DNA of 64,000 nt from Fistulifera solaris (lineage: Eukaryota; Bacillariophyta; Bacillariophyceae; Naviculales; Stauroneidaceae), in the NCBI GenBank assembly GCA_030295235.1, contig AP026132.1, positions 62,001-126,000 of the forward strand, written 5' to 3'. A model generated the notes under the pieces. It ran no database searches. It saw nothing but the letters and a program-made list of their open reading frames with translations, and had not been told where the DNA came from. Positions 19,046 to 47,250 of this stretch are shown here, in pieces. The position numbers and the translations under genes were made by a program. How positions within the stretch are numbered: the stretch's first letter is position 1; each line of letters starts with the position of its first letter.

Positions 19046-19182
19046 TCATTCAAAATAACCAAGATACTCTTTCCTTGCTTTGAGAAACTGTTGTAGTCAA
19101 TCAAACAAAGCAAGAACAAGACAAGTATACCTTTCTTTGTCTCTTTAAATTGCACTCAATTGATTTGAGCAGTAGAAACATC

Positions 19183-20900
19183 ATGAAGTCACATACACAG
19201 GCCCTTTTTCTTTCGTCGGCAGCTTGGTGGACCCTCTCATCCTTCCTCGTCGTCGTCGTACGTGCCGATGACACCAACAGCTCTGCCACCGATGTCTATG
19301 AAGGATGTGATTTAGAGACGTATTATGCCGATCTCTTGTCGCTCGGTACACCGGATACGTGGACGCTGGAACAAATTCGCGATCACTTGACGGAAACACA
19401 TCGCAATATATTACCCTCGTTCCCCACCAACGAACAACCCGATGACATTGTGGCCGCCCTGATTGATTTGTGGCCTGCTTCGGCGCACGGCACCGGCACG
19501 GACGACGAAATTCATTTGATTTATTCCAATACTGCCATTGCCAGTCGTCCGGCGTTGGGACTCGAGAACTGGAGGCCGGAACAATATTGGCCCTTGACGC
19601 GAGGAGTGTCCGTCACGTCGGCGACATATACCGATGTGCATCAGAATGCACCGGCGGATTACAGTGTCTTGGATGATAAGGAAGCCTTGAATCGAAACTT
19701 TGTTGTCTTTTACGGAGAATGCGGTACCGTCAAGGATGCCGAACTTTGTGTATCGCCTGCCAACGTCGAAGCGGCCGAAGATACGTCCCAAGATGGAAAA
19801 GTGTACACACCCGAGGCCAACATGCGCGGTGACATTGCGCGGGGATTGTTTTATGACAATGCTCGTTACGTGTACTTGACCTTGACGGATTGTCCACCCT
19901 TTGCGCAGGGTGAATACGGATACCGTTCGGCGTTGCTGGAATGGCACGCCCAAGATCCGCCCGACGAAGTCGAACAAGCCCGCAACGATCGGGCCTGTCG
20001 TCGTTGGCAAGGAAATCGGAACATTTTTGTCGATTATCCGCAATTGGTGCCGCGTTTGTTTGGAGAACCCGATGTCATTCTGGACGACCAGCAAACGTAC
20101 AATGAATGTGTCGATGCGACGGAAGCCCCGACCGCGTCACCCAACGAATGCAGTGCCATTCAACCGGGTGATATTAGTGTATTTGGTTTCAACTCGGTCG
20201 ATCCGGACCAGATTCTGTTCTTTCCCATTTTCAACATTCCAGCGGGTGTCGGAAGTTTGTTTTTGACGACCAACGCGTGGGATGGAGAAGCACTGTTGCC
20301 GACCGGAAAGACCGTGGAGGTGAGTGTGCGGAGTGCGTGTGATAGTGTTCCTGGAGTGACGCATAAAGCTCATTGCTTTTCTTCTTTTTAAAGTACGTGA
20401 TTCCGGATAGTGGCATTGAGGCTGGTCTTGTATTTGCTTACAATGCCATCATTCTCAACTACACCACCAATGAACCACGCGAGGCGTTTGTGTGGAACGA
20501 ATTGAATGACGAGCCATTTGCCGTGGACAATTTGGGCGATCACTTTCATTTGTACTGTATCAATGCGGACAATGAACCCCATTTCATTTTCAGCCTCGGA
20601 TTCAATAGCGTCAAGGAGTGGAAAGCCGAAGCCTTACCAGCGGCCGAATATGGAAAGTCGAGTGCGTTGCCCGCCCGTCTGAGTGAAGAGGGCAATGTCT
20701 TGTTGCCGGACTTTGCGAATTGGTTCTACAATGGAACCCAAAATGCGAGTGCTACTGTATTGATTCCGGCTTTTTCGGATGCCGCCAACTGGATCAGTAG
20801 CGATCGACCATTCGAAATCGATAGTGGGGCGTCGACTCTCCTGTCGATGCTTGTTTCAGTCGCCTGTGTGTTTGTGTCGGTAGCGTACGCTTGGATGTAA
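19183..20900 (+). CDS. secreted endonuclease I family nuclease, probably GPI- or tail-anchored
   Basis: Two exons, 19183-20319 and 20394-20900, joined across a 74-nt intron (GTGAGT to TTTAAAG), give about 547 residues. The start at 19183 opens a signal peptide ending VVVVRA/DD. The catalytic region shows the EndA/NucM-type order: HLIYSNTAI, WPLTRGV, MRGDIARGLFYDNARYVYL, LLEWHAQDPPDEVEQARND and QGNRNIFVDYPQLV. The family degrades DNA and RNA non-specifically with Mg2+. The usual E-H-x-W-P-x-S block is altered to E-Q-Y-W-P-L-T, so activity should be tested. A second domain after the intron is unassigned. The protein ends in SGAS and a hydrophobic run to the last residue, typical of a GPI signal. 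Nutrient scavenging from extracellular DNA would fit. Confidence 0.85.
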
Positions 20901-28769: not shown

Positions 28770-28873
28770 AAGTTGGGTAGTAGTAAGATAAATTTTGAAT
28801 ACCAGTATTGGTTTGCTTGTATTAAAAGACAGGTTATTAACGGTATTCGAACCTTTTCTTGAGACTCTTGTCT

Positions 28874-30136
28874 CTACAACACGCCTCGCACTTGTTCCAG
28901 CGCAGAAGGACAAGCTACGAGTAAACAATAGATGAGTGTCAGACGTTCACGTTCCAATTGCACCCGAACTTCTGCTTGTTGATGCCGCTGCAGAGCATTC
29001 GCCACGACGATCCCCGCACGCCCCGCCATTTGTTGTTGTGTCGCGTACTCGATTTGTTGTTCGTCAAAGGGCAGAACCCATCCAGGGGCAAAGCCCGTAT
29101 ACAGTACGGAAGGTGCCGCCTGCCACAAAGGATGAATCCATCGCTTTCCCGACTGTAAGGCTAACTGCAATGGATATTGTCTGTGCTCACTGTCGCGTTG
29201 GAAAGGTGAATACACTTCCAGCAACGGCAGTAACATGCCATCGTGACTGTGATAGGAGGGGCTGGTAGCCCATAGATGCAACGGCGTGGTCTGATCGGGT
29301 ATTTTGAAGGACAGATTGGCTGACTTTGTCGAACGGACTGTTTTCATTGCTGGTAATTCATATTCCGTTTCGTTCATACGCGATAATTGGAACAGTGGTG
29401 TTGCGGACGGTCGCCGCGACAAGATACGCGACTCATCCGGTGCAATATAGCCCTGTAACGACAAAAGCAAATAGGCCACAGGGGCTGGGCAATATCCGTT
29501 CCGCGCCAAAACACACGTCATGTGATGAAAATCGCGCAAGGGTGCTCCTCGTGTCATGGGTTGCGTCGTGGGTACACGACACAAGAGTTGCAGGCGTCGC
29601 AAAAATTCCAGCAGAGGCAACAACTCGGTGCTACGGCGATCGGACGCATGGCCTTGTCGTATGACATGTTGTATCGTTTCGTATTCGTCCGGATGTTGTA
29701 ACATTCGTGTCACGCATTCATGCAGGGTTTCGTAACGAACCGTTTGCCAGGGCAATGGATTCCAGTACGTGGAAAGGAAAACATCCAAGACCGACTGTCC
29801 CAGCTGCGTCCTTCTCGTATAAAAGTAACTTTGATTGATTGTGGATTGTGCGATAGATGTAAGGCTTTGCTGAGCCAATTGCATCACGTATTCAAAGGTT
29901 TTGAGAGGCAAGCCGTGACTGACGGCATAATGTAACGTCGTCCATCCCGTGCTGGTTGTTTCCCACAAAAGGATGTTCAAGGTATCGTTCCTATTCGTTG
30001 ATGTTTCATCTTTAGAACGACAAGCTGCTTGAATCAAATCGGGCAATTGATGAAAGTTCCCCAAACGAATCGCTTGATGCAACAAGGGAACGTAACTGTG
30101 TGCGTCGTGCTTTTCCAGAAGAAGATCGAACAACAT
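28874..30136 (-). CDS. ankyrin-repeat-like protein
   Basis: The first ATG in frame is at 30136 (MLFDLLLEKHDAHSY), giving 420 residues. Ankyrin-like helices are visible near the start (YVPLLHQAIRLGNFHQLPDL), at TGWTTLHYAVSHGLPLKTFE and again at TTPLHLWATSP and YPLQLALQSGKRW; a weak one follows LGQSVLDVF. The order and spacing resemble the divergent ankyrin proteins common in diatom genomes. No enzymatic domain, leader or membrane span is seen. A helical C-terminus rich in Gln/Arg may be a coiled coil. Likely protein-protein interaction; partner unknown. Confidence 0.6.
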   Translation of the reverse strand: MLFDLLLEKHDAHSYVPLLHQAIRLGNFHQLPDLIQAACRSKDETSTNRNDTLNILLWETTSTGWTTLHYAVSHGLPLKTFEYVMQLAQQSLTSIAQSTINQSYFYTRRTQLGQSVLDVFLSTYWNPLPWQTVRYETLHECVTRMLQHPDEYETIQHVIRQGHASDRRSTELLPLLEFLRRLQLLCRVPTTQPMTRGAPLRDFHHMTCVLARNGYCPAPVAYLLLSLQGYIAPDESRILSRRPSATPLFQLSRMNETEYELPAMKTVRSTKSANLSFKIPDQTTPLHLWATSPSYHSHDGMLLPLLEVYSPFQRDSEHRQYPLQLALQSGKRWIHPLWQAAPSVLYTGFAPGWVLPFDEQQIEYATQQQMAGRAGIVVANALQRHQQAEVRVQLERERLTLIYCLLVACPSALEQVRGVL

Positions 30137-30481
30137 GGCTCTTCGTCTCACTTCAACCGCCTATCTCCGAGTATTTTCTCTGAAACAAGAATTATGATAT
30201 TTGAGTTGACTTCTGAAACAATCTCTCCAGAATAATAGCGGCGGAATTTTGGAAGAATGCGAATAAACTTTTTTTACAGTATTTCTTGCGGATGTGATAT
30301 TACTCTACGACACTTAAGGTTATGGATGTTGCTAACGCCTTGTAGGCTTCCATGTAGTCGTCAATTCAATTCTTCTATCTCGATGGCCATCATAACTTTG
30401 TCCAGCAAGAATAGTCAAGTATCATGAAATAACAATCGACATCGATTTTCCTGCAATAAGTAACATGCATGAAAGATGCAA

Positions 30482-30965
30482 CGCTTCGAAAGTCTACGTG
30501 ATTTTACGTAGCTCTCGTAGTGAAATACGGACGAGTACGGAGTAATTATTAACGACAGAGGGAAACCCGGAGTTGGGTAATATCGAACACACCCTTTTTC
30601 GCGTCTTTGCTCATGCGTAAAATGAAACAAAACCAACATTTTTAATTTCAGCATGAAATATGAGACATCCGAAACATACGGTTCCAGAGTCTACGCGTTA
30701 TTTACGTAGCCGCCGTAGGAAATTTATCTCTGCAGGGGAACCCGGAGTTCGTATTATTCACAACCATCCCAGTGATGCATTTACAGTGCACCGATGTCAA
30801 CGTTTTCTTGTCCAATGTGTTGGCTTCGTATCGTAAAGCAATAGTCTCCCTCGATTGGAAAGCAAAACGTTGATGGAACGAATGATACAACGCTTCGAAT
30901 GTCTACGTGATTTTACGTAGCTCTCGTAAAGCAATTTATCGACAGAGGGAAACCCGGATATTGAT
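30482..30965 (+). repeat. three dispersed copies of repeat family B
   Basis: Copies at 30482-30572, 30681-30755 and 30891-30965 carry CTACGTGATTTTACGTAG or CTACGCGTTATTTACGTAG hairpins and a GGGAAACCCGGA or GGGGAACCCGGA block. The first is preceded by GCATGAAAGATGCAACGCTTCG as in the 22.8-kb satellite and has about 20 extra bases inside. They lie upstream of the gene at 31055 in the same orientation. Confidence 0.8.
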
Positions 30966-31054
30966 ATGGAAAAAATTATGAAAAATGCATGTTTTTCATT
31001 TTGTTTCATTTTGTCGCCATTATTCGAAAAACCGTCTTTCATCGCAAGAGCACA

Positions 31055-31585
31055 ATGCCATCACCACCTTCCTCCGAAGATCCGTGGGTGCAAGCGGTGC
31101 AAGCGGGTGATGTGATTCGTCGTCGTATGGCGGAGGAAAACATTCCGCAACATTCGGCGTTCGTACCTCCGGGCATCGGAGAAGGGGTCTTGGCAGCGGC
31201 AGGGACGGCCTTGTTGTCATGGCCATTGCGTCGAGGTCTCTTTCGTCTACTGAATCAACCTAACAATAAACAATTTCAAATCTTTTTGGAATTAGTGGTG
31301 ACACCGCTGCAAGCGTTGGTTGTCGTACAAGCGGGGTTGTTGGTGGGCAGTGTGTGCGGAAGTCATCATTACTTGCAACAGTTTCTTCAATTACAACAAG
31401 AGCAACGAAAAAGAGACCTATTCTCGGAACCTTCCTTCGTCCAAGACGTTTGTCGGGAACTGATGTTGCCCGGTTCAGGTTCGCAGGATAATACGGTCAG
31501 CTCGATTGCGATAACAGGTTGGACGTCACAACAAATATTGCAAACCTATCGACAAGTGCTACAAAATTGTCAAAGAAATGAATAG
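31055..31585 (+). CDS. small protein with two hydrophobic segments (unknown)
   Basis: I chose ATG 31055 (MPSPPSSEDPWVQAVQAGD), giving 176 residues; an in-frame ATG at 30989 would add 22 hydrophobic and basic residues that abut repeat DNA. Two hydrophobic stretches, GVLAAAGTALLSWPL and LELVVTPLQALVVVQAGLLVGSV, could span or lie in a membrane. The C-terminal third is polar and helical (FVQDVCREL, QILQTYRQVLQNCQRNE). No family was recognised. A mitochondrial or other organelle membrane location is possible but not shown by a clear leader. Confidence 0.55.
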   Translation: MPSPPSSEDPWVQAVQAGDVIRRRMAEENIPQHSAFVPPGIGEGVLAAAGTALLSWPLRRGLFRLLNQPNNKQFQIFLELVVTPLQALVVVQAGLLVGSVCGSHHYLQQFLQLQQEQRKRDLFSEPSFVQDVCRELMLPGSGSQDNTVSSIAITGWTSQQILQTYRQVLQNCQRNE

Positions 31586-31662
31586 AAGAATGATGCCCGT
31601 GCACGACTTTATATTTACGATATTGTATTCCCATTTGATATCTCCCAACGACCACACTCTTT

Positions 31663-33605
31663 CTATTGTCCGTAGGATTCTTCAACAAGATGAGAGGCGA
31701 TTCGTTGTCGTAATGACTCGGATAAAGATATGCTACTGGGCGGTGAAGTGGTTGTGTCTGTTGGTGTCTTGAACGACGAAAGCGACGGTGCGGCCGGCAA
31801 AGAAAATTGCCCGGTTGTACTTTCCTCCATGATCAGAAAGGAATCTGTGGCAATAGTACTCTCCTCCATCTTTCGATCCTTGTCGTATGGTAACTCCTCG
31901 TTGTCGTGTGGATTGTGAAGGTGCCGCCGAAGCGATTCGTATCGCTCTTTTCGTTCCGGGTCTTTCCAAATTGAGTAGATCGATGGCTCACTTGATAATG
32001 GGATGGATAGATCGTGGTCCGTAGTTTTGTAGAAGTACGGTTGGGCGTTGGAATAGAACGAATCTTGGTCGTCGTCGTCATCATCTTTCGATGATAACGA
32101 ATCGTTTCGGAAAGGCATTGTGGGCAACTTCGTAGTAGCCAAACGTTCTGGCATAAACTCCGTCAAGTAGATATTATCGTCGTCCATCATGCTGCATTCG
32201 ATATCTCGAGGAGTTCCAGTCAGACTGGAAGCGGCCGATTCGTCATGGTCGACCCGAATTTCGTCAGTCGCTGCTTGACTGAACGATTCACGCGGTTTAC
32301 CGAGATAACTGTCGTCGTCATCACCCTCAAAAGGAGAAATGCACCAGATCCCAATCAGCACCGCCACGATGAAAGCAATCATCAACCCAATGATAGTCAA
32401 TGCCTTGCGTCCTGTTTCACTGATTTGTGGTGCGCCCTTTGTGTGTCCGTTGCTGTGTTCTTTTTCATCGGATGTATCAGTGTTCGAGCTTTGCACGGAA
32501 TCGTTGGGGATATCCATGTTCAACACAATTACTCTGGCAGTAGCTAGAATCGCATCCTCGTCCAAATGAAGTTGCAGTAGTAAGTGATTGGTCAGTGCAA
32601 CACTTTGTTGTTTCCAGATCTCGTCCGAAGCATTGATTCGAATATCTTTCACCGGATCCATATACAAATGCCCTGTGAAACGAAAAAATGCGTCCGCTTC
32701 CTCATATGATCGTGACACTATCTGTAGCGTCACATTGTGGATTTGGGTATCTTTGAGAAAAATGGAATTGCTCAGGTAACGCTCGAGGGCCCGTTGCACC
32801 AACGCATCGAATCCCGAATGCCAGGGTTCTTGCGCCGTCAGCTGCAAATCAAAGCTCTTCAATGTGACAATGTCATAATAAGCTTCCGAGTCGTCACTCG
32901 ACGGCATTTCCGGTGTCAATTCTATTCTGCTAGGAGATAGTGTGGGCGCAGGCGATTCTTTCACAATACTGATGGAAAGTTGAGGGGCTGCTTTCGGAGA
33001 TCGGGTTGTCTCCGGATTTTCTGTAGCCATGCCGGTTTCGACCAGGAGAGATTGTGTGGGTGAAGCCGTCAAAGGAACGGGGACTCTGTTGCAATACTCA
33101 CATAGCTCATAGATGGACGGAGTGACGTCGACGGAGAAACGGTGGGAAACGCTCGGCTGGTGTTCTCGTCATTTTTGCTTTCGTTGCTCTTGTTTTTCTT
33201 TTTCCGCCGCGTGGGAGAAGCAGTAGGAAAGGACGTCGGGAATGACGTTGGGAACGAAGTCGGCGAGGGTGTACTCTTTCGTTTGTTGCTCTTCTTTTCT
33301 TTGTAATAGCGGGTTGGGGATGACGTCGGAGCAGGAGTGCTTCTGTGTTTACTATTCGTCTTTTCATCGTTGCCATCTGGATTGTTCGGGCTTGTGATCA
33401 TTATGTATGAATCAGAATTATATTCAGGATAAATGGATGGAGCAATTGTGGAAGGATAAGCACTTGCGTATTGAAAAAGTTTTCTTTTCCTTTCATTCTT
33501 AATGGTCGCACCCTTCAGTTTATCCCCTCGAAAGGTGCCTGCTTCAATCGAGAGAGACAACGAAACTATCCATATTGCTGTGAGAAACGTTTTGCTGCTG
33601 ATCAT
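31663..33605 (-). CDS. SPT-stalk single-pass membrane protein 1 (cluster member)
   Basis: Starts at ATG 33605 with a signal peptide (FLTAIWIVSLSLSIEAG). A Lys/Pro/Thr/Ser stalk with TSFPTSFPTSFPTASPT follows, then a folded region starting LKSFDLQL and including NVTLQIVS, FFRFTGHLYMDP, EIWKQQSVALT and RVIVLNM, one membrane span (LTIIGLMIAFIVAVLIGIW) and a long acidic Ser-rich cytosolic tail. The stalk frame ends in TGA near 33069; the remainder continues one register over. One extra C in the GGGG run (plus-strand 33079-33082) gives an uninterrupted chain of about 647 residues. It is the first of seven neighbours with this plan. Function unknown; receptor-like or cell-wall-associated roles are possible. 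Confidence 0.7.
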
Positions 33606-33808
33606 GGTCTTATTAGATATCAAGAAAGTAGTTAGCATTCATCAGCCCTTTTTACTTTGCAGTCTGGCAAAATTGTTTCATTCTTGAAAAAGTGAGGAGG
33701 AGATATCAAGGTCAACGCATCGGAACGAAATTTTGAACGGCTTCAATTCGTACTTTTGGTCTACCGTCACGAGTCTACTGTGGCGAAGAGCGAAGGGTGT
33801 AGTCTTGT

Positions 33809-33867
33809 CATGAATGAATTCCAGTCGTGGTAAAATACCGACAACACTTTGGGGGTATAATATAGTC
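33809..33867 (+). repeat. family A element
   Basis: CATGAATGAATTCCAGTCGT, then CCGACAACACTTTGGGGGTATAATATAGT: both halves intact, in the 376-bp gap between two cluster genes. Confidence 0.75.
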
Positions 33868-33981
33868 AAGAACGAAGTTGATTTCGCTAGAATTTCGAGA
33901 GTATTGAGTGATTTTCACTAGTAGAACATTCTTCTATTGTAACATAAAGCTAATGTATTTGGAAGCAGTTTGCGTATTTTC

Positions 33982-35200
33982 TCACATATCCAGCGATTCG
34001 CAAATACTTCTGTCCAAGGTATAGGACATAGCATAGGAGGCATAGTCAGGCAAGTCATCTTTCACTCTTTGTTCGGTGATACTCGATGTGATAGAAGGGG
34101 CGTCTGTATGGTATACGATAATGGTTGCCGAGGGGTTGGTGGATCGAGATGTTCGGGAACTCTTTGATTTATGGGAAGGCGTGTGCGGCTTCACTGGTTC
34201 TGCGGGCACTTGCCTTCGGTGACGGAAGGCCAGGTATATGGCACCGGTACCGATGATCGAGATTAGCACAACACAAACGCAACCAGCGATGACAATCAAA
34301 TGGGTAGTACCTTTCAAGTACGAGTGACCGCCCGCCAACTCATCCAGAACCGCGCTGCTATCCACGAATTTCACGTTCGTTACTCTGACTCGAGAAACTG
34401 CCATGAAGGGACTCTTGTCAAAAGCCGCTTGAAGCGATGGTTGATCCATCATCACTTGTAGTTGCTGGATCCAAATAGCATCTGGATTAATACTTTGATC
34501 GACACCGATATCGTAATAGTAGTATCCGTGATAACGATAGGCACATTCCTTAGTGTCCGGATTGCACGAGACGGTTTGCAATGCGAGTGTAACGTTCTTT
34601 CCTTCCAGTCCGGGTGTACTCAAGGATGCTTCGATATATTGTTCAACAGTGGATTGAATGTGTTCATCATCGAAAGAAGTGCTCCATTTCGGATCGCGCC
34701 ACAAATATAATTCGAACGTTTTCAAAGGAACGGAAAATGTGACGCTTTGTTGCGGCAAAGGAACTTCTTCGACGTCTTGTTTCGGTAAACTATCCTCTAG
34801 GTACGCCGTCGGGCTCAGTGTATCTGCTTTGCGACCCCTTGCACTGTATGCATCACTTGAGTCGTCCGATGGGGATAGTTGTGATTTTTTGGGGGCAGTG
34901 GCGGGTTCCATTTCGTTTTCGGTCCATTCCAATGAGAGGGACTTGGTCTTTTTGTCGGATTTTTGGGTTACGTGTGGGTGCAGGTGACCTAGTAGGACTG
35001 CGACTTTTATCTGATTTCTTTCTTTTCGGGGCATGTGATGGAGTGGAAGTAGGGTAGAACGTTGGACTGCTGATGACAGTCGTCGATCTATCGGCGAGAA
35101 TGCGTTGCTGCCTCGCCTCCGACACGCGCGGTCCTACCGCAAGCGATAGCAAAAGCAGACACCATTGATACCGCTGAAGCGAAAACGAATAGCGACGCAT
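33982..35200 (-). CDS. SPT-stalk single-pass membrane protein 2 (cluster member)
   Basis: ATG 35200 opens a signal peptide (QWCLLLLSLAVGPRVSEA). A stalk with SPTFYPTSTPS and SPTRSPAPTR follows, then the shared domain: PLKTFELYLWRDPKW, NVTLALQTVS, YRYHGYYYYD, IWIQQLQVMM and VSRVRVTNVKF, one membrane span (LIVIAGCVCVVLISIIGTGA) and a short basic/Ser tail. The frame changes within the stalk; removing one base from the TTTTT run at 34960-34964 gives 405 residues without a stop. The domain pairs clearly with those at 31.7 kb and 41.7 kb (LKxF-x-L-x-L, N-V-T-L). Four Cys around CNPDTKEC suggest a disulfide in this copy only. Confidence 0.7.
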
Positions 35201-35511
35201 TGCGATGTACTTTTTAGATCAAAACGTACATAGTGTCTGTAGTTATCGTCAATGTTGCTTCAACTTTCATTTCGGCGTTTGTGATCTTTTTTATTGAATC
35301 TTGTCTGGACACCAAAAAATAGTGCCTGTCTTTCGCGTCTCGTCCGGCGCGCACGATTGGATGACACGAGCGCGAGACCCGCGAAAATTTTCGCATCGGA
35401 ATTTTGAAGATCGTGACTCACGTACTCTTCAGTCAAGGATCGATCTATGCTTCATGTACATGAATATTATTTACCGAGATAAAAATTGGCTCAAAAATCT
35501 CTTTAACGCAT

Positions 35512-36795
35512 TCAAGCACTACGCTTTCGTCGTAAATAATATCCCAAAACATCATTCTCGGGAGATACGGATGCATTTTCTTCACGTCCTTCATCCGTCG
35601 GCAAATTATGGTTGTCTTTTTCATCCTCTACAAAGAGTTCCTTTTCCATGACGACTTGTTCTCGTGGATGGTCACTAATTGTGGTGGGAATAAATTCTGT
35701 CTCTGCCGCGTTCGTCTTTGCCGTATTCATGGGTGGATTGGATGACACAGTTGGCTCGCTGTGTACCACGGCGGGTTCCAGGAACTGCCGAGTCGATTTC
35801 TTCGGCCGCGGCGGAGACGCGGGATCATCATTCTCGGGATCCGAATATCCGTCCATGAGAATACTATCGGTATCAAATTGATGTACGGGAGCCCGAATAG
35901 GACTCGCCGACATGCTATGATGCGTCAACGATTCTTCATCTTCCGAGGGTGTTCGTGTTGTTGTGACGACATAAAAGGAAGATGGGACGACTTTTCCCAT
36001 GGGAGTGGACCATGCGATGGATGCCGCGTCGTCCTGCGTCGTCGGCAATTTGACCGGGTCGGGTGGTAACTGATTGGGTGGTTGTTGCCTTGACGGTTTT
36101 TGCCGATTCCACATCCGCCACACAAAAAATACTAAACACAATATGCCTCCCAGCAGTACGACAGCAATCACGATCCATATCCATTTCGAAGGACTTTTCT
36201 CGTCCAGTTGCTTCGGTGCCGGCGGCAAATACCAAAGCAGTGGTTTGTCTTGCCAGAAAGCATGTAGGGCCACCGTATTGGCCAACGATGTCAATTGCAG
36301 ACGCTGCAATTCCTTTACATCGTCACTGGTGGGAGGCAAGGCCATGAGAGCTTCTCCGATGAACTCGTACACAAAGTACGGCGTTTGCCAACTGATCTGT
36401 GTGGCGGTCAGGGTGATAAAAACATCGATTAAGACCGTATCCGAATAAATGAGTTGCAATTGTTGCGTCAAATAATCACTCAGCTTGTCCGCTAAAACAA
36501 GTTCATCGTCGGGATGTTCAATAAATATCATACGAAAGTGTTGCAATGGCCATGTGGTTCGAAATTGAGTGGTGTTTTGCGTTCGAATAACAACAGTTTC
36601 GGTGTCTTGGGGTGCATTCGTTGCGCGTTTCGTCGGAGACACTGTTGGTGCGAACGAAGCAGCAGTGATTGAATGTGGAGAAGACCGTTCAACTTGCTTT
36701 ACAACCTGCCGCTGTGCTGAAAAGGACGACTCGGCTCGCAAAAACGGAAAAAAGAGGATTATTATGCTCGCATATTGCATTCGTCGAAGCGTCAT
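35512..36795 (-). CDS. SPT-stalk single-pass membrane protein 3 (cluster member)
   Basis: 427 residues in one frame. Signal peptide (YASIIILFFPFLRAESS), short stalk (SFAPTVSPTKR), shared ectodomain (WPLQHFRMIFIEHPDDE, LIDVFITLTATQISW, FVYEFIGEAL, LQLTSLANTVALHAFW), one membrane span (WIWIVIAVVLLGGILCLVFFVW) and a cytosolic tail of about 200 residues rich in Pro, Ser and acidic residues, with SPIRAP and SPPRP sites. The stop-transfer is followed by RMWNRQK. The upstream gap (36796-37265) is a divergent promoter shared with cluster member 4. No catalytic motif is seen. Confidence 0.75.
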   Translation of the reverse strand: MTLRRMQYASIIILFFPFLRAESSFSAQRQVVKQVERSSPHSITAASFAPTVSPTKRATNAPQDTETVVIRTQNTTQFRTTWPLQHFRMIFIEHPDDELVLADKLSDYLTQQLQLIYSDTVLIDVFITLTATQISWQTPYFVYEFIGEALMALPPTSDDVKELQRLQLTSLANTVALHAFWQDKPLLWYLPPAPKQLDEKSPSKWIWIVIAVVLLGGILCLVFFVWRMWNRQKPSRQQPPNQLPPDPVKLPTTQDDAASIAWSTPMGKVVPSSFYVVTTTRTPSEDEESLTHHSMSASPIRAPVHQFDTDSILMDGYSDPENDDPASPPRPKKSTRQFLEPAVVHSEPTVSSNPPMNTAKTNAAETEFIPTTISDHPREQVVMEKELFVEDEKDNHNLPTDEGREENASVSPENDVLGYYLRRKRSA

Positions 36796-37127
36796 TGTAG
36801 GAAAATGAATAATGAACTCTCAATAATTGCGTTGAATTCACTGCACCTCTTTGTAATCTCTACGCTTGTGCGCATGCATTGCGCTCTTCCTTACTTTGTA
36901 TTCTTCTCGTTCCTAGAAAATCTACCGCATTCAACAACAAGGATCCTTAATTCGGAGAGACGAGCGCGGCACTCCTCGAAAGAATTGTCTTTCGTGTCGT
37001 GGGTGCGCGCCCCGGGGCGAGTGGACGACGTTGGGTGCTGTTTTGTTTGTGAAGGCGCACGCGCATCAACGCCTGCGTTGTGCCCGTTGATTTCGGAGGA
37101 CGGACGAGGCGGACTTGAGTGACTATT

Positions 37128-37139
37128 AAGTATAAAACG
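37128..37139 (+). promoter_or_regulatory. TATA-like box
   Basis: AAGTATAAAACG lies about 130 nt before the ATG at 37266 in the divergent promoter region. Tentative; the rest of 36796-37265 shows nothing else recognisable. Confidence 0.25.
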
Positions 37140-37265
37140 TGTTATCGGCTTCACTTAGGCAGTAATGTTTTTCTCAACCTCCCTCCGTTTCTGTTCATCA
37201 CAAAATGAACGCCAACAAAATCGAGTTTCGTTTGTTCTGTTCATATTCTCTCATTTATAAAAATA

Positions 37266-37958
37266 ATGACTACAAAGCGATTTTGCACTCTATTGTGGAT
37301 CAGTCTTGTCAGCTTACCCATGATGACAAAAGCGACTCTAAGGCGGCGCGTGCTAGAAACAGAAGACAACGTAGTGACGACAATACCGACGACGGCTCCT
37401 ACCATTGTACCCACAACAATCGCAGCATCTGCTTCCGATGTTCTGTCGGAAGAGCAGCAATCAACGTTCATATCATTACGAAATTTTTCAATGCATTTGC
37501 AGCCGCCTGTGATGGAAACAGATCGATTAATTCAAAGTATCGAAGCCTACTTGCAGGAAGGATTCTTGTGGGATGTTCAAACCGTCACCTGGGGAGAGGT
37601 GCAACAAGTAGCATCTTCCGAAGCATCGGCGTGGTATTTCTTTGGGGCCGGAGTGTTGCAGCTCGTCGATAAGGTCGATACCAATCCGACGGAACTGATA
37701 CTACAACAAGAGCAAGTTTCCCTCATGAAAGATACCGCACTCTTGGAACATGTACTGCAACAAGATTTCTCCGACTTGAAAGTTCTGCAAGTCCAATTCG
37801 AAGGTGAATCAGCACCACCGAACGATGCCATGTTTTCCAGTGCACTATCGATGGCGCAGACACTCTCGCTCTTGATTTTGAGTGCCCTGGTGCTAATATC
37901 GATTGTTGCCATCGTATGTTTACGTCGTTATTGGAAAATACAAAGCCGAAAGCTGTAA
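37266..37958 (+). CDS. SPT-stalk single-pass membrane protein 4 (short-tail cluster member)
   Basis: 230 residues. Signal peptide (FCTLLWISLVSLPMMTKA), a short TTIPTTAPTIVPTT stalk, the shared domain (ISLRNFSMHLQPP, IQSIEAYLQEGFLW, WYFFGAGVLQLV, LILQQEQVSLMKDTALLEHV, LKVLQVQF), a membrane span (LSLLILSALVLISIVAIVCL) and only a ten-residue basic tail. This and member 6 form a short-tail subgroup, both ending in RRY-x-x-I-x-x-x-K. It is the only plus-strand member apart from the last. ATG 37266 is the first Met of the signal peptide. Confidence 0.75.
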   Translation: MTTKRFCTLLWISLVSLPMMTKATLRRRVLETEDNVVTTIPTTAPTIVPTTIAASASDVLSEEQQSTFISLRNFSMHLQPPVMETDRLIQSIEAYLQEGFLWDVQTVTWGEVQQVASSEASAWYFFGAGVLQLVDKVDTNPTELILQQEQVSLMKDTALLEHVLQQDFSDLKVLQVQFEGESAPPNDAMFSSALSMAQTLSLLILSALVLISIVAIVCLRRYWKIQSRKL

Positions 37959-38038
37959 TTCCTTTGGTCTCCTCATCATTTAAGACACTGCATAAGTCTA
38001 CGGCACGAGCTAGACGAATGCGGAAGCCGAATCAAACA

Positions 38039-39659
38039 TTAAACATTGCTATTAACAGGCCGATTTTTACAAGTGTCTCGTTCATCTAGCTGCTTCGGGT
38101 TCAGCCATAAAGTCGTCTTGGGGGTCGTCTTCGAAGATGTTGAGTTCTTTTCATCGTCGTCGTCTTCCTCTTCTTCATCCTCGTCGTCTTCCTCGTCTTC
38201 CTCGGGAATGGTCTGCGGCCCTTTCCATTCGTAAGGTTCGTGGGTATCCTCTTCCGGCAAAGCTTCGCCCAACTTGGGTCTTGTTATTTGATACCGTCGA
38301 TATACCACCAAAACGCAGAGGACAAAACTAACGATACTCAATAGTCCGGCAATCAATACAAGAAGATTCCGGTCGTCGCTGTTATCAGTCGGCGAACGAT
38401 CCTCATTGTCCTCTTCGCCATTCGCTTCCGACAACGACAAGTCCAAAATCATAAGATTTGGATCGTTCATGCGTTGTTGTAGTTCGGTTTGTATGAAATC
38501 TACGTCTTCGAGCAATCGAGTTTGATCTTCGTGTACTTCTGCAACCGTCACATCTTCAGCTTCTGTTGCTATTATTCCATTCACAAAGCTATAGCCCTGG
38601 GCAGTATTTCGTTGTTTGGTAGGCTCGGGCAATGGAAAGCTAACAGCCTCTAGTCCATCTACCAACAATCCATCAAAGAAGATAGACTCCATACTGTCTC
38701 GTAATTTCCCCGTTTCATTGACGGGGTAAGCCAACGTTAAAACAAAATCCAACAATTCGAGTTCTCTCGTGCTACCGGACGGTGAAGGCGGCTCATTGGA
38801 TGGCTGTGCGGCTGGGGGTCCGTTCGCATCTGTGGGAGATTCGGTCCTTGTTTGTGATGGTCTTGGTAGTTCCCCCGATGGCAGAATCGTTGGAAGCATG
38901 GTAGCGGCCGGAGATAATGTTGGGCCTGTCATCGGCGGTAAGCTAGGGCGGTTGACGGGCTTTTGAGGTGTCGAGGTGGGTTCTCGGTCACTGGGATTAT
39001 CCTCATGATCGCCGTCGCCGTCACCGTCGCCGGAACTGCCGTCTTTGCCGCTACTCTCATTACCCTTGTCCTTCTTCTTCTTCTTCTTCTCAGACTTTTT
39101 ATTGACGCCATTATCGTCGTCATCTTCGTACTCGTCGTCGGGGTCCTTACTTTCGTCTTTACTTGTCGTTTTCTTCTTTTGTGACTTCAATGGTCGGCTA
39201 TTCGGACGTTTGTCGTGTGAATGTTGATCGTCTTCGTCCTCGTTATCGTCGTCTCTCTTTTCCCTTGAAGCTGAGAGGGGGGAGAGAGGGGGATCATCGT
39301 CACGGTCCTCGTCGATATCGTCTTCATCCTTTTCTCGCTTTTTTCCCCTGAAGTGAAGGAGGGCTATTTGTTGACTGATTCTCGTCATCTCCTTTTCCTC
39401 CTTGCGTGCCATGTAGCTGAAAGGTCGGTATTGTCCGACTCTGCTTGTTTTCATGCGTGTCTTCACTGAGTTTCGTTTCGAGTATTATGTCATATGGTAT
39501 TAAACGATTAGGCTCGGACCGTGAGCTGACTCCTCGAAGTGCCTGGAGCCTTCTTCTTCTCCGCGAACTATTACGAGATTCTGCAAATGGAGCAACGTAG
39601 AGCAGGAGCACAACGAGTGTGATGGCTCGGCCGAGTTTGCCGCTTCGTATAGAGAGCAT
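38039..39659 (-). CDS. SPT-stalk single-pass membrane protein 5 (acidic cluster member)
   Basis: ATG 39659 gives a signal peptide (AITLVVLLLYVAPFAES); an in-frame ATG at 39716 is possible. A highly charged region of about 150 residues (DEDDIDEDRDDD, KKKKKKDKG) precedes a Pro/Thr/Ser stalk, then the shared domain (LELLDFVLTLAYPVNE, QGYSFVNGIIAT, FIQTELQQRM, LMILDLSLSE), a membrane span (LLVLIAGLLSIVSFVLCVLVVY) and a tail with a long Asp/Glu run. The frame shifts at GKK; removing one base from the TTTTTT at 39339-39344 yields 539 residues. The charged blocks resemble mineral- or polyamine-binding regions, but no silica-protein motif was recognised. Confidence 0.65.
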
Positions 39660-40148
39660 ATTGTTATTGTGCAATCGCAGGGTTTGTTGTTGACGTAGTG
39701 ATGCATCGCCAAGCATAAAGGGATGATAAATCTCGCCGGCGACAATATCGAAGAGTCACGCAACGAAGAAATATCGTCGATGTCAAAAAGTGGCGAAAAT
39801 TTCATTCCTACAAGGGACACGATTGCGAATTTCGAATGTCATGTAATAAAACGTGATTTAAAATATATAGTACACAATGCTGTAGTACGCTATACCACGG
39901 CACTGAATTGATATCAGCAGAAAATCTTCCAACGGAGCCTTCTTATTTGGGTCGTTTTTACCGCCATGTGAGTAGTAACTAGACTAGAGCTCTCAGCTAA
40001 GGAAGACACTTTTAACATCAGATCAAATTCCTTAGTCTCGTCACGTGAGGTTCATACGGTACATTACTGTTCTGTTGAATTGGTCGACATAAGAATAGAA
40101 GAATGAATGATTATGTTTCAAAGTTTCAAATGATTCTGTGCAAATCTA

Positions 40149-41050
40149 TCATTTCTTGATGGTTTTATATCGTCGATAGCATACAGCAGCAGCGGCGCAA
40201 AAGGTAATGAGGCACACGACTGTAGCAGAAATCATGAGTGCGGCATTCATTTCATCCTCTATTGTGGGCTGAATCAAGTGAGCCGACGGAAGCATGACAT
40301 TCTCTTGCACAATCTGAATGTCTTGCACTCGAATGGTTGCGTCTTCGAGTTCTTGTTGCAGCGCGCTTTCCACAAATGAAAGGTCGGATAATAGCTCTCG
40401 TTGTTGTGTTTGAAGTAACCCCACCAATTCTTTGTTTTCCACAAAAGCACTTCCGTCCGAAAACGAATAGGTCTGAGAGTTGATTTGTGCCGGTGTTGTT
40501 GAAAATTGTATCTCTTTGATGTCAACTAACACCATTCCAAGACGTAAGGTTGTTTCCATACCCTCTTCCAAGCGATCTAAATCGAGCGAGGTTTCCGAGG
40601 TTACGGATATTTGAAAATCGAGCAGAGGCGCTGATAAAAGGATTGAGTCGGGTTTCACGGGAGCTGATGAGCTCAAGGTGAGAGTAGGTTGCTTTGTTGG
40701 TTCTTTCGTTGGATACAGAGTTGGGATTGGTGTTTCCCAGCTGTCGGATTCTTCATCTTCATCTTGATCCCCGTCTTCGTCGTCGTATTCTTCACTCACA
40801 AGGGGTGACCTCGTCGGCGTTATTGTAGGAGCCGGTGTAGAAGAAGCCTTTCCGTCGTCTTTCTTTTGCCTTTGTCTTTTCCTTTGGGAGTAGTACTACG
40901 TTTCGTTCCCGGTGGCAATTTATGGGCGCGGTCAAAAATGTTTTCCCATTGCTCTTCCGAAGGTTTAAGATGCTTCGCCTCCACTAACAACGAGGAGTCA
41001 CATAGCAGGCAACTAGAAAGCCCCAATATTAGCCATTTGTAAGATATCAT
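40149..41050 (-). CDS. SPT-stalk single-pass membrane protein 6 (short-tail cluster member)
   Basis: ATG 41050 opens a signal peptide (YKWLILGLSSCLLCDSSLLVEA). A Lys-rich segment, STPAPTITPTRSP and an acidic run lead to PTLYPTKEPTKQPTL and the shared domain (PLLDFQISVTSETSLDLDRL, QTYSFSDGSAF, QQRELLSDLSFVESALQQEL, IRVQDIQIVQ). A membrane span (ALMISATVVCLITFCAAAAVCY) and RRYKTIKK end the chain. Two frames meet near 40860-40867, an A-rich stretch on the coding strand; one added base gives about 300 residues. It is closest to member 5 in the ectodomain and to member 4 in the tail. Confidence 0.65.
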
Positions 41051-41651
41051 GATGTGTCGACTTCTTGTAACGTTATATCGTTGCCTCTATCCTTCGCAAA
41101 ACAGCTGTTTCCAATGCTTGGACACGAGAGGTGAAAAAAGACGCGCGAAACACATGTTCGTCGCCCGTTGCAGATCAAAATTTTGAGATCACCACAAGAC
41201 ACGAAGTAACACTGTCGTTGCGGTACTGGAAATGGCGCACCTTTCATCTGGATCTCTAATTACTTGAAAGTTAATCTACTGTAACCGAAATGAGTATCCA
41301 GTCCAATCACCAGCACGCGTCAGTGAAGTGTACTGTCACAAAAATTTTCAAATTGATAACATTAAATCTAATTCCTCCTCTTGATTACTTAACAAAAAGT
41401 GTCTAAGTATCATTCTCTGCCTGACACTAAAAAGAACAATCCTTATTTTTCCGTTCAGGGTGTGACTCCCTATTTAGTGCACATCACCTCACCAATTCAC
41501 CACCGCTTTTGCTGACTAAACACGTTTGTAAGACTCCTCCTTCGTCATGCACACAAAAACACCTCCCGAACATCCCGTCCAGACAAAAAAGTGCAACATA
41601 AGATCGATTTTGGAGCGATTCAATTGAACATTCACAAAATAATCCGCGACG
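41051..41651. other. intergenic, divergent promoter region
   Basis: Lies between divergent cluster members 6 and 7. Nothing beyond A/T-rich promoter-like sequence was recognised. Confidence 0.4.
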
Positions 41652-43552
41652 ATGAATTCCCTATCGCGTTTAATAGTGCTAGCAGGGTTATTGCTTCAAG
41701 TGCAAGCAGCACCACGAGGGAGTCCCTTGGGTTCCAGACGTTTGGGTCACAACACCGAGTCCCCTACACCAGCGCCGACGCGGAAAAAGCACCTGTACTC
41801 GATCGTCAACAATCTCAATAATCGATTAGAGGGAGAGGACTCCGACTTTACACCAGCGCCCACTACTTCCCCCACGCCTCCGACGTTTCATGCGAATTGG
41901 GAGCACCAACGCCTACCGCGCATGACAAGAATACTCCGTGGATTGATATCGATGGGGACGATGAGGAAGAAGACGATGGGGACGATGGTGAAACGACACC
42001 TACCGATGTCATCATCACACCAGCCCCAGTTTCTTCTCCTGTAGTGTTCGGCCCGCCGGTTCCTGAGTTTCCCGTTGCTGCACCGGTGCCGGTACGAAGA
42101 ACACGCCGACCAACACCGGTTCCTACGATGCCACCGACAGTCGCTCAAACTGCTTCTCCGACTGTCGCTCAAACCGCTTTTCCGACGGTTGCTCAAACTG
42201 CTTTCCCGACAATCGCTCTACCAGGCGTTTCGGCATCCGCCTTTCCGGGTGTGCCTGGAACGGCCTTTCCAACGCCTCCTGGATTTACGGCAACATCCTA
42301 TCCGACTCTGGATTTATCAAAATACTGGACTCCGGATCCCACAGCTTCTCGAACAGCCGCTCCAACATCGTTTGGTGAAACAGCGTCTCCATCCGAAGCG
42401 CCTTCATCGGCACCGAATATTGGAACATTTGCGCCTGTGCAAATCATTCCGATTGATTTTGGATCCATCGGTCATTTGCCGACCCTTTCGTTTACGTCGC
42501 GTCCCTCGGCCGTTCCTTCCGTGTCTCCCACAACCAGTGCACCTTCTTCGCTACCTACCGTCTCCTCGGCCATGCCAACGGAGGACAAAACGATGTGGAC
42601 ACCGCTCAAAACCTTTGATTTGCAGCTCTCGCGGGATACCCGATGGAACACGCAGTTTGCACCCGATGAATTGCGTCAAGGTTTGGAAACGTACTTGACG
42701 GAATCCATGATGATCTTGTCGGCCGATATGACGAATGTCACGTTGACGATCTTCACTTCGGCATTCAATGAAGACAAATCGGAAGCATGGTTTCGATTTC
42801 AAGGCAAATTGTTTTATCTGCCCAAGAGCGAGGACATGGAAATCAGTTCCGATGAAGTGTGGGCGCAGCAAATCGCATTACTGGAAAACATGGACGCCTT
42901 GCAATGGATCTTGCAAAATCAACCCACCATGGCGGCGGGCTTTGTCACCATCAAACAGTTGGCCTTCTTAGATGGTTCTTCCACACAGACATATGATGGA
43001 TACAGCGGAGGCAGTTCGAGTGCTTTGGATCAAACAACGAAGATAGTGATCGCGGTGGCGGCAATCCTGTTGATTCTGGCGTGCAGTGTAGGAGTCTACA
43101 TTTGCATGTTTTTGGATCCCGAGCCGGAAGAAGAGCCATTGCCCATTCAAACCAAGCTTACTCCGCATACCGACAGTGACTTTTCGGTCGGACTTCCCGG
43201 CAATCCTCATGTACCGGAAGTCACCTTTGATCAGGAATCGCATTCGGAAATGTCCAGCATTACCGAATTACGAGCGGACGATCCGCGACCGGACATCCCC
43301 GGTGCTTCATCGGTTGATGCCATTGCTTCGAATGATTCTCGACTCGTTCCACTTTCATCACTTCCCGCCGATTCCTCGCATCTCAGTGATAATAGTCAAT
43401 ATCGAACGACGGATTCGGTTCAACTGAGTCAAAGCGAATGGTCCATGGCGGCGGGAAACACGGACCCGCCCGCCCATACCAGTGCACTGGGTTCAGAAGG
43501 GTCGGAACACGGATCCGTAGAAGATCTCTACGTGACGTCGGATGCGAAATAG
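41652..43552 (+). CDS. SPT-stalk single-pass membrane protein 7 (cluster member)
   Basis: Signal peptide (LSRLIVLAGLLLQVQA), then a stalk of about 270 residues with SPTPAPT, TPAPTTSPTP and tandem PTVAQTAFPTVAQTAFPT repeats, then the shared domain: PLKTFDLQLSRDTRWNTQF, ELRQGLETYLTESM, NVTLTIFTSAF, AWFRFQGKLFYL, EVWAQQIALLENM and FVTIKQLAFL, a membrane span (IVIAVAAILLILACSVGVYI) and a Ser/Asp-rich cytosolic tail of about 150 residues. The frame changes after PPTF; one extra T at 41886-41888 would join the parts into about 633 residues. The domain is closest to members 1 and 2. Likely O-glycosylated on the stalk and N-glycosylated at NVT. Confidence 0.7.
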
Positions 43553-44219
43553 AAAACATCATATTGACGACTCGCATTTTTCAGCCCTCTTCTGTGATTT
43601 GGAAACAAGTACAGACCATTCCTATAGAGTTCCTCCAGCTATGACAGCACTCGAATGGTTTCCAGCACAGAAAATGCCTTATTTTAGTTTATTTGGATGA
43701 ATACTAACTAATTACTATAATCGTGATGATTGTTATAGAAGTACGTTTGCTATTGTTCCGCTCTAGAGGAGTGTTAAGGGAACTTTAAAAAATCCATAGC
43801 ATGAGTCTTTACGTGTGCCATTCAAGGCTCGGGTAAGTTTGTAGTGCATGCATGAACTGCATGAGTGCAGGCATAAAATGCATATTCAAAGTAGATTGGG
43901 GTTTTCCTTGTTGTTCCTAGCTGTGTGAGGTGGCAGGGGGATGAGCTAAATAAATAATTTTTCATCGTTGATTTGTCTTACTGGCTATCAAGACTATCTA
44001 TTAATCAGTAGATTACCTTTTATTTGGCAAGATTGACAGTTACCGACTGTGAATCAAAGAGTAGTCGGGAGGCCTTTCGTCATTTTTTTCTCCGTCCGCA
44101 ACGTCGATGATTGTGTTGCTTCATTCGTTGTCGCGCATAATAATAACAACGAGATTATTCTGCGAGAGTTCCTTCCTTGACAAGGAAAGGAATATTGACT
44201 ATTATTAATCTTTCTTATC
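43553..44219. other. intergenic, no gene seen
   Basis: A/T-rich 667-bp gap between the last cluster member and the LRR gene. A GCATGCATGAACTGCATGAGTG-like stretch around 43847 is locally repetitive; nothing else was recognised. Confidence 0.4.
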
Positions 44220-46586
44220 ATGAATCACACAATTCCAATTGAAAGTGAAGAAGCTTCCGCGAGTCTCTCGACTTCGGATCTTTCGGGCGCCGTCAATGCG
44301 ACAGCCTTTGACGACGACAAAATGGAAGATGTCGAAGTCGGAGGCAATGAAACGATTGCTCCGGAAGAACCGGCCATGACGCAGGGAAATACGTTAGTCG
44401 ATGTTCCCGGAACAATGAATAAAGGCATTCGTGCGGGTTCGATTCGTCGTTGGGTTTATGTTACGGCAATTGTATTGATTGTGTTGGCGATTGTAATTGG
44501 TATTGCGGCGAGTGTTTCGAACAATAATAACAAAACATCCGCTTCTTCTTCCGGATCCTTTCCTAACCCTTCGCCCGTGGCGTCTCCGGTGTCATCTCCC
44601 GTGACTTCTCCCACTGCGGCTTCGCCCGTCGCACCGACATCATCGACGGCTCCGCGACAAGCTACATATGAAGAAGTCGTGACGTTTCTTTCGTCGCGCG
44701 GGGTCTCGAACGAAGACGAGTTGCGTAGCCGCGGAAGTCATCAGCACGATTCGGCCGTCTTTTGGCGAATCATGATCCTCTCAACTTGCCCTTGCCGTCC
44801 AGTACCGATCTCAGTGATCCGCAAGTCGAACACTATGTCACGCGCTACGTGATGACATTGTTGCATCACGGATTGGATGGATACAATTGGACATTTCAGC
44901 TCAATTATATGAGTGAGCTCGAAATGTGTTACTGGAATGGTATGAAAGCGTCCTTTCAGCCCGATTTTATTCCTGTTCCGGAAGCGGGAGGAGTGTTTTG
45001 TTTGAATGGGACCCAAACGCCCGTGGCTTTGGATTTGGGTGAGTGATTGGTGGAGATCTTGTATCTTGCACACGCTTTTTGTATTCTAACAGTCTGTCTC
45101 ACTATCTCTTTATATATCTAGAATACAACAAACTCAAGGGAACGATTCCGACGGAACTAGGATTGCTCACCAAGTTGGTGTTTTTGGATTTCGAATTCAA
45201 CGAAATCAACGGGACGATACCTACAGAACTGTGTCAATTGACCGATTTAGAGCATCTTTCTTTGCGAGGGAACTACTTGACGGGCTCGTTGCCGAGTTGT
45301 ATGGGGCAGTGGTCGAAATTGGCGTATCTAGACGTCGAAGTCAATCAGTTGGATGGATCGTTCCCTCAAGGCGATGCGCTTTGCAATATGAAAGAGTTGG
45401 ATACCGTCGTCCTTCAACGCAACTTGTTCAGTGGAGCGCTTCCAACTTGTATGGGACAGTGGACGCGTTTGAATGGCTTTTTTGCTTCCGAAAATTTCTT
45501 TACAGGTAGTCTACCGTCGGAATTGGCGTTATTGCCCAATGTGTCACACTTTCTTGTGGATGACAATGAGTTGACGGGCAATCCGAATACGGTCTTCAGT
45601 GACATGCCCACTTTGAAGTTCTTATACTTGGACAATAATCAGTTTACGGGGGTGATTGATTCTACCTTTGTTGCCAACTCACCCAATTTGACGGCCTTGG
45701 ATATATCGCACAACAATTTCACCTTGGATCCTGCCTCGCCCGTTTTCCCTCTCCATTTGTTGCAGCATCCGACACTTCAGATTCTCGATGCTTCGACGAA
45801 TCTTCTCAACGGTAGCTTGCCTTCGACCGAGTTGCAGGCCAACAGCGCACTGCTCTTCTTGTCGCTGCACTCAAATGCACTGAGAGGAAGTATTCTCGAC
45901 AACTGCACCAATTCAGTGAATTGGCGCACTTGGATTTGTCTTTGAACAGCTTCACGGGTGCTTTACCGGATCAGTTGTTTTCCATGAGACTACTGAATCT
46001 ATTCTTGAGTGAAAATCCGGGGTTGCAATCCGGTCTTCTTCCAGACTCCATTTTGACCAATCATACCGGCTTCCGTGAACTTTCCTTGCGCAACACGCAA
46101 CGCACGGGACCCTTACCCTCGTTGGCTGGTTTCAGTGATTTGGTGCTGTTGGATTTAGGAGGAAATGGCTTTACAGGTGCAATACCTACACAGTACTCTG
46201 AATTGACCGATTTGCGGTATTTGTTGTTGAATGGCAATCCGGGCTTGAGTGGTTCCATTCCGGCCATGAGCCAGTCTCCCGGCTTGCAAATTGCGCTGTT
46301 GGATAACACGGATATTTACGGCGACTTTTCCAGCCTTTGCGCTTTGACGGCCTTTACGGAACTCGATGCGTCGGCCGTGTTGGGCGACAGTGCTTTGATT
46401 GTGAACTGCAACACGACAGCAGGCGAGGTATCGAATTGTGCGTGTTGCAAGTGCTGCCATCGTCCGGGAGGATGTTCGAATCCGGTCGTAGCTAGTTTGG
46501 ATTGGACGTGGGAACAAAGAATGTCTCAGACAGTGCGCGATTTTTCAGTAAACGAGACGCTCTTGTTGGATTTTGAAGAGTTGTAA
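44220..46586 (+). CDS. leucine-rich-repeat type II membrane protein
   Basis: Begins with an acidic cytosolic part, a membrane span (WVYVTAIVLIVLAIVIGIAA), then a Ser/Pro stalk (PVASPVSSPVTSPTAASP). A capping region (YEEVVTFLSSRGVS, LANHDPLNLPL, LEMCYWNG) precedes the LRRs, with LxxLxxLxLxxNxLxGxIP repeats such as NKLKGTIPTELGLLTKLVFL. An 83-nt intron (45039-45121) splits the first repeat and joins as LDLEYNKLKG. The frame breaks at TTTT 44760-44763 and near 45893-45898; one base added at each restores about 761 residues. A Cys-rich cap (CACCKCCHRPGGC) follows the LRRs. No kinase domain. Diatom genomes hold many such proteins, possibly surface receptors or adhesins. Confidence 0.8.
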
Positions 46587-47250
46587 TGTATTTGTTGCGC
46601 ATTTGAAAGCGATGGATGACTTGATCGTGTTAAAAAAGACTTTTGGAACTCATTAACTAGTTTAATTAATCTTGAATCAAGCCGAGAAGATTACCGGGTA
46701 TATTGTTATTACATTTTGAAATATCTTAAATCGTAGGGCGTCCTATCATCTGCTGGCAGATTCCCGTTGGGAAAGCGAGGTGGGCTACTCGAGAGCTAGA
46801 TCTAGTAGTTAGTGGGTACAATAACCGCCGCTTAATATGTCTAAATCGGTAGACGATAACAGATGTCAATCCTCGACGAGCTACAGAGACAATTAGTGGA
46901 AGTTTGTTCGTTCCAGAGGCCCAAACAACATGCACTAGCTGGGTCTAAGGCGTCATCCCGGTTATAAAAAACGAATCCGTGATTGGACGAGCTACCACTG
47001 TGGAAAAGAAAGTAACGGGTGAACGCGTGACTGAGACTTCCCACTTATACCGACCAGCTGGGACCACCAACTTCTTGACCACAATCATCTCGATCGATGC
47101 AGGGAAGGTTATGGACGTCAAGGAGATGGACGTAAAGCATAAGGGGAGAAGGGAGAACGTTAAAATTCTGCCTATAGTACAAATTCTACGTAGCGTCTAC
47201 GAAGACGCAGAATTTCAACGCCGTTTCCATACGCAGTTTGATTCTAGGAC
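46587..47250. repeat. first copy of a decayed 46-50 kb repeat
   Basis: About 46895-47085 shares ordered landmarks with 48960-49040 and 49565-49765: TTCG-ATC-AGAGGCCC-AACA, TCCC-GTTATA, CGAATCCGTG, ACTGTG-AAAAGAAAGT and CCACCAACTTCTTGACCAC. A short CCACCAACTTCTTGACCAC copy also occurs at 49440. A 147-residue frame at 46979-47422 lies over this repeat and the transposon end and is not supported as a gene. Confidence 0.55.

Follow-up and report, generated by a model that had tools for sequence, protein, structure and literature searches.

Positions 31663-43552 of a 64,000-nucleotide stretch of Fistulifera solaris DNA (hereafter the window, which covers bases 62001-126000 of contig C15 in a genome of 51.7 Mb and 61 contigs) raise the question of whether seven neighbouring genes encode one protein family and what such proteins could do in a diatom. 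An initial annotation, with an alignment made by eye, had assigned all seven products one plan with a common ectodomain reminiscent of SEA-type modules and no named family. The cluster is best explained as diatom type I membrane proteins that were multiplied by tandem duplication. We find this family to be real, conserved and apparently unnamed, with a domain that is predicted to fold like SEA.

Seven genes with a common plan

The seven genes lie on mixed strands (-, -, -, +, -, -, +) and each encodes a predicted signal peptide, a stalk rich in Pro, Thr and Ser (P/T/S), a domain of ~120 residues, a membrane span and a tail, as initially annotated. An N-terminal hydrophobic stretch is present in each of the seven (mean Kyte-Doolittle value 2.3-3.0 over 10 residues), and the main frame of every gene contains exactly one segment of membrane strength (mean of at least 1.6 over 19 residues), which starts 13-38 residues past the end of the domain. 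With the topology inferred from the signal peptide, the domain in all seven would be extracellular and close to the span, as is characteristic of the SEA-like superfamily. The genes and their ectodomains are as follows (E values are from leave-one-out profiles, and dN and dS, the nonsynonymous and synonymous divergences, are from comparison with a second copy of the cluster, both described below).

31663..33638, minus strand: gene 1, with a Lys-rich P/T/S stalk and a 226-residue acidic Ser/Thr-rich tail; two open reading frames (ORFs) overlap near 33069-33072
32410..32874, minus strand: gene 1 ectodomain and linker to the span; subgroup A; E 4.5e-16; dN 0.137, dS 0.42
33982..35200, minus strand: gene 2, common plan, with an 86-residue tail that is not acidic
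34309..34740, minus strand: gene 2 ectodomain and linker; subgroup A; E 1.8e-15; dN 0.108, dS 0.385
35512..36795, minus strand: gene 3, common plan in a single open frame, with a 203-residue tail
36187..36570, minus strand: gene 3 ectodomain, divergent; E 1e-3; dN 0.061, dS 0.501
37266..37958, plus strand: gene 4, common plan in a single open frame, with a 12-residue tail
37461..37853, plus strand: gene 4 ectodomain and linker; subgroup B; E 1.1e-11; dN 0.072, dS 0.52
38039..39716, minus strand: gene 5, with a long Lys/Asp/Ser-rich stalk without PTxxPT, a frame change in the stalk and an 87-residue acidic tail
38372..38773, minus strand: gene 5 ectodomain and linker; subgroup B; E 1.9e-9; dN 0.039, dS 0.314
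40149..41050, minus strand: gene 6, common plan, with a 10-residue basic tail and a frame change near 40865
40248..40646, minus strand: gene 6 ectodomain and linker; subgroup B; E 3.2e-12; dN 0.075, dS 0.426
41652..43552, plus strand: gene 7, with a long PT-rich stalk and a 149-residue acidic Ser-rich tail
42590..43036, plus strand: gene 7 ectodomain and linker, the most constrained; subgroup A; E 1.3e-25; dN 0.006, dS 0.242

Pro, Ser and Thr together make up 26-40% of the stalk frames, with overlapping frames counted as they stand. The PTxxPT repeat that had been ascribed to the stalks is found in six of the seven genes and in none of the 15 other window ORFs of at least 300 residues, but gene 5 lacks it. 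The tails range from 10 to 226 residues and had been described as either long and acidic or Ser-rich, or very short. This description fits the acidic tails of genes 1, 3, 5 and 7 and the very short tails of genes 4 and 6 only (12 and 10 residues, both basic), but not gene 2, whose tail has 9 Asp and Glu against 11 Lys and Arg.

Two short motifs recur among the tails. Genes 2 and 7 have an SSITE-R motif in common (window 34100-34050 on the minus strand and 43230-43300 on the plus strand; 1 of 1000 shuffles was as good). This is the strongest of the 10 tail pairs compared out of 21 possible, and the sole pair with a long common segment, which does not adjoin the span. A short RRY motif directly after the span is common to genes 4, 5 and 6 (37917-37958, 38280-38300 and 40149-40181); it scores best for the pair of genes 5 and 6 (19 of 1000 shuffles as good) and is not significant for the other two pairs.

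The ectodomain and its predicted fold

Leave-one-out hidden Markov models (HMMs) were trained on six genes and their homeologs and then applied to the domain held out. All seven held-out domains were recovered, each with a score that exceeded every one of its own 500 shuffles and of 351 decoy ORFs taken from elsewhere in the window. E values for six genes ranged from 1.9e-9 (gene 5) to 1.3e-25 (gene 7), and gene 3 reached only 1e-3, with a score of 14.9 bits against a best of 7.2 among its 500 shuffles and 4.6 among the 351 decoy ORFs. Profile-profile comparison resolved two subgroups, genes 1, 2 and 7 (A) and genes 4, 5 and 6 (B), with gene 3 apart. Subgroups A and B were linked at E 1.1e-4 with a probability of 57% over 115 columns, and for gene 3 against group A the E value was 0.0083, which 1 of 100 column shuffles reached. 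This gene, in whose domain the last strand is not obvious, is the weakest member. Because HMM recovery is strong for six genes and the profile matches of gene 3 are weak, the common ectodomain is firm at the level of sequence for six genes and membership of gene 3 is probable. The common domain proposed from the earlier by-eye alignment is borne out, weakly so for gene 3.

The domain has no recognised name in the databases searched. Nothing above cut-off was returned for the seven proteins from Pfam, NCBIfam or PHROGs. Rows below cut-off in Pfam and NCBIfam, of which the best were a low-complexity match on gene 5 (E 0.0019) and DUF6338 on gene 3 (E 0.0022) and the rest mostly membrane spans, were not used as evidence. 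The SEA profile PF01390 did not match any of the seven in Pfam scans at E <= 1 and <= 10 with HMMER filters on, and comparison of PDB sequences with the seven-row profile gave four rows at chance level (best E 0.29; S-layer, beta-lactamase). Single-sequence searches of the genome with all seven domains found no further copies beyond C15 and C16; distant relatives may be missed because such searches do not cross the two subgroups. Weak matches on C24 (E 0.34), which overlaps an ORF recognised by eye as isopropylmalate synthase, and on C11 and C12 (E 0.13 and 0.19), in ORFs that look thioredoxin-like by eye, were taken as chance, and matches on C6 (E 2.85) and C1 (E 0.137) contain stop codons. 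Scans with the gene 7 domain only matched no pattern in viral contigs and found seven stretches that fit a pattern in prokaryote genomes, none of which was confirmed as a relative. In the open-licence library searched, no paper was found that combines SEA domain, diatom and transmembrane.

One domain from each subgroup was modelled with AlphaFold 2 (two of the seven). The gene 7 model (42590-42998) has a mean predicted local distance difference test score (pLDDT) of 90.8 and a predicted template modelling score (pTM) of 0.85, and the gene 6 model has 84.8 and 0.76. Both models have the same element order with a broken second helix, and SEA, MAD and IA-2 chains appear repeatedly among the high-ranking structural neighbours of each. 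Both fit the SEA-type interpretation first proposed from the predicted order of strands and helices. SEA domains are reported to have a ferredoxin-like sandwich in common despite low sequence conservation (PMC6586460), and the IA-2 ectodomain is described as SEA-related, with SEA domains acting as modules for oligomerisation and matrix contact (PMC3174154).

Cleavage of SEA domains, by autoproteolysis or furin, is located in the beta2-beta3 loop in the account of PMC6954182. The GSVVV-type autoproteolysis motif of canonical mucin-type SEA domains was not found in this loop. Gene 6 and its homeolog alone have a GSxx[VIA] match inside the domain, GSAFV at residues 65-69, which the model assigns to a strand; the gene 7 match (residue 141) falls in the linker past the domain. 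An R-x-[KR]-R site was found in none of the 14 ectodomains of the two copies. If the proteins are cut, another protease would be responsible. The SEA-like domain of Notch is likewise described as having no autoproteolytic site, and work with chimeric receptors is reported to show that a SEA-like domain acts as a proteolytic switch when it has a structured neighbour, but undergoes constitutive cleavage when it has none, as in MUC1 and IA-2 (PMC6586460).

The homeologous copy and the reading frames

Contig C16 carries all seven genes as well, at ~75500-87740, with order and orientation unchanged. They are part of a homeologous block (C16 73003-91244 against window 28812-47011; 82-87% DNA identity) that includes an ankyrin-like ORF and a leucine-rich-repeat gene. 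The loci of the weak matches on C11 and C12 also look like a homeologous pair. The C16 duplicate and the C11/C12 pair suggest that the diatom is allodiploid, in line with the 42 homeologous chromosome pairs reported for Fistulifera solaris (PMC5935921).

In every gene the ectodomain has an uninterrupted frame in the C15 and the C16 copy alike. Divergence between the C15 and C16 copies was estimated over the ectodomain and linker by the Nei-Gojobori method, by script and without a significance test. The dN/dS values are low: in the order of genes 1 to 7, they are 0.33, 0.28, 0.12, 0.14, 0.12, 0.18 and 0.025. Constraint is weaker ahead of the domain than within it in six of the seven (dN/dS 0.41-0.59), gene 1 being the exception (0.25 against 0.33). 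The tails of genes 7 and 2 are also constrained (dN/dS 0.018/0.234 and 0.041/0.254).

Outside the ectodomain, the stalk frame changes in the window copies of genes 1, 2, 5, 6 and 7 (near 33082, 34970, 39344 and 40865, and at 41822-42041). Genes 1, 2 and 6 show no such break in the stalk on C16, where genes 2 and 6 are single open frames. At or close to four of the breaks (genes 1, 2, 5 and 6) the C15 and C16 sequences differ by one base, and for genes 1, 5 and 6 the difference falls in or beside a single-base run. Breaks are also present in the C16 copies, in gene 1 at its 3' end and within genes 4, 5 and 7, and gene 7 has a frame change in its 5' region in both copies. Introns were considered as the cause. 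There are 53, 74, 62, 1 and 44 GT-AG pairs that would keep the frame open in genes 1, 2, 5, 6 and 7, yet on C16 three of these genes (1, 2 and 6) need no such pair to stay open at this point, and because of this copy-specific indels are likelier than introns. The breaks are probably indels of the assembly, which is the simplest reading; decay of single gene copies could also account for them.

Adjoining the cluster at 44199-46586, and also present on C16, is the leucine-rich-repeat gene, whose product is apparently membrane-anchored, with a Ser/Pro-rich stretch, and is split over several frames. A 435-residue ORF at 19084-20388, in which Pfam recognises Endonuclease I (E 3.9e-14) and whose N-terminal part includes a hydrophobic stretch, possibly encodes a secreted nuclease.

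Possible roles at the cell envelope

We favour, at a probability of about one half, the reading that the family consists of membrane proteins whose SEA-like, membrane-proximal ectodomain links the envelope or silica side to the cytosol. The P/T/S stalk would be O-glycosylated and project into the cell coat or wall, and the SEA-like module next to the membrane would be a compact connector, sensitive to protease or force. Long cytosolic tails may recruit signalling or cytoskeletal partners, and the two members with tails of 10-12 residues may be partners or pure anchors. In this way the proteins would join the outer side of the membrane, be it the silicalemma or the plasma membrane beneath the frustule, to the cytosol, with shedding by near-membrane cleavage possible. 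Animal transmembrane mucins and IA-2-like receptors have the same order of stalk, SEA-like domain, span and tail, and together with the fold models this order suggests that the proteins connect the coat or silica wall outside with the inside of the cell. The likeness to these animal proteins is partial. MUC16 SEA chains are among the structural neighbours listed, but the diatom proteins differ from MUC1 and MUC16 in having no Pfam SEA match and no autoproteolysis motif in the beta2-beta3 loop. Their stalks are also much shorter than those of animal transmembrane mucins. Protocadherin-15 MAD12, cadherin-23 MAD28, IA-2/ICA512 and phogrin belong to animal receptors whose cadherin repeats or phosphatase-like tail are not seen here.

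The alternative that survives best, though we consider it doubtful, is that these are silicalemma proteins like silicanin-1 (Sin1) and the Silicalemma Associated Proteins (SAPs), in which stalk and domain would lie in the lumen of the silica deposition vesicle and join the biosilica after cleavage, with the tail read by the cytoskeleton. The overall type I layout, with a signal peptide, a low-complexity lumenal stretch in the case of the SAPs, and a single span, is that reported for Sin1 and the SAPs, as are RXL sites (PMC5525289, PMC5647440). An RXL tripeptide follows soon after the signal peptide in five of the seven window copies, but summed shuffle frequencies predict ~2.5 of seven by chance, so that the observed number is about twice chance, and two of the four homeologs tested have RXL. 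Clusters of five lysines within 12-14 residues are reported to target silaffins (PMC9650480), and the stalks of genes 1, 5 and 6 contain stretches of 14 residues with at least five Lys. Such clusters are found in none of the 15 other window ORFs of at least 300 residues, a background that is small and not matched for secretion. However, they are missing from four of the seven stalks, and those present are more mixed than the Ser/Gly-spaced clusters of cingulins. None of these signs is strong. The lumenal part of Sin1 is described as a 341-residue NQ-rich region with 18 cysteines (PMC5525289), whereas each of the 14 ectodomains has 0-2 cysteines. The 28-residue conserved segment of the SAPs, which we compared by description only, is cytoplasmic and adjoins the span (PMC5647440), whereas the conserved part here is lumenal. 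Because of these differences, the seven proteins do not qualify as silicanins, and membership of the SAPs is not supported.

Next in standing, and in our view unlikely, is a domain with a ferredoxin-like fold unrelated by descent to SEA, serving as a ligand-binding receptor ectodomain and resembling SEA by convergence. Ferredoxin-like domains of unrelated proteins score as high in the structure comparisons, neither the Pfam scans nor the PDB sequence search found a link to SEA, and the only in-domain autoproteolysis-like motif is not in the right loop. Against convergence, the membrane-adjacent position, P/T/S stalk and single span fit SEA proteins, and the SEA, MAD and IA-2 chains recur as described.

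Several comparisons weigh against a single family: group A matched genes 5 and 6 alone at only E 0.0084 and 4.8% probability, although none of 100 column shuffles did as well; on its own, gene 7 matched gene 3, 4, 5 or 6 at E 0.03-0.14 (low similarity had already been remarked between distant members such as genes 3 and 7); and gene 3 matched genes 4, 5 and 6 at chance level (E 0.27-0.67; 21 of 100 shuffles as good against genes 5 and 6). That genes 1, 2 and 7 and genes 4, 5 and 6 form two unrelated families with gene 3 as a third, as the failure of single-sequence searches to cross the groups might also indicate, is nevertheless very improbable and already disfavoured, given leave-one-out scores that exceed those of shuffles and decoys by a wide margin for six genes and also exceed them for gene 3, the same element order in one model per group, and the adjacency of the genes.

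Returning to the SEA-like connector between envelope and cytosol, a fuller and more speculative version, which we regard as rather improbable, is a diatom system resembling transmembrane mucins. Seven SEA-like proteins on the silicalemma or plasma membrane would hold the silica or organic coat with stalks that are glycosylated or rich in lysine, and their tails would inform the cytoskeleton of the condition of the coat, with the SEA-like domain as a breaking point operated by force or protease, as in Notch and mucins.

The SEA domain is known best from animals, and a diatom SEA-like module, if true, would widen its range beyond them. How the cytoplasm communicates with the silica or coat across the membrane in diatoms is an open question with few transmembrane candidates, namely the silicanins and SAPs. 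The cluster offers a compact candidate set with a foldable ectodomain, kept in both homeologs, and is of interest because it provides testable membrane candidates for contact with the envelope or silica in a species, Fistulifera solaris, for which Cas9 ribonucleoprotein editing of both homeologs has been reported (PMC13276009).

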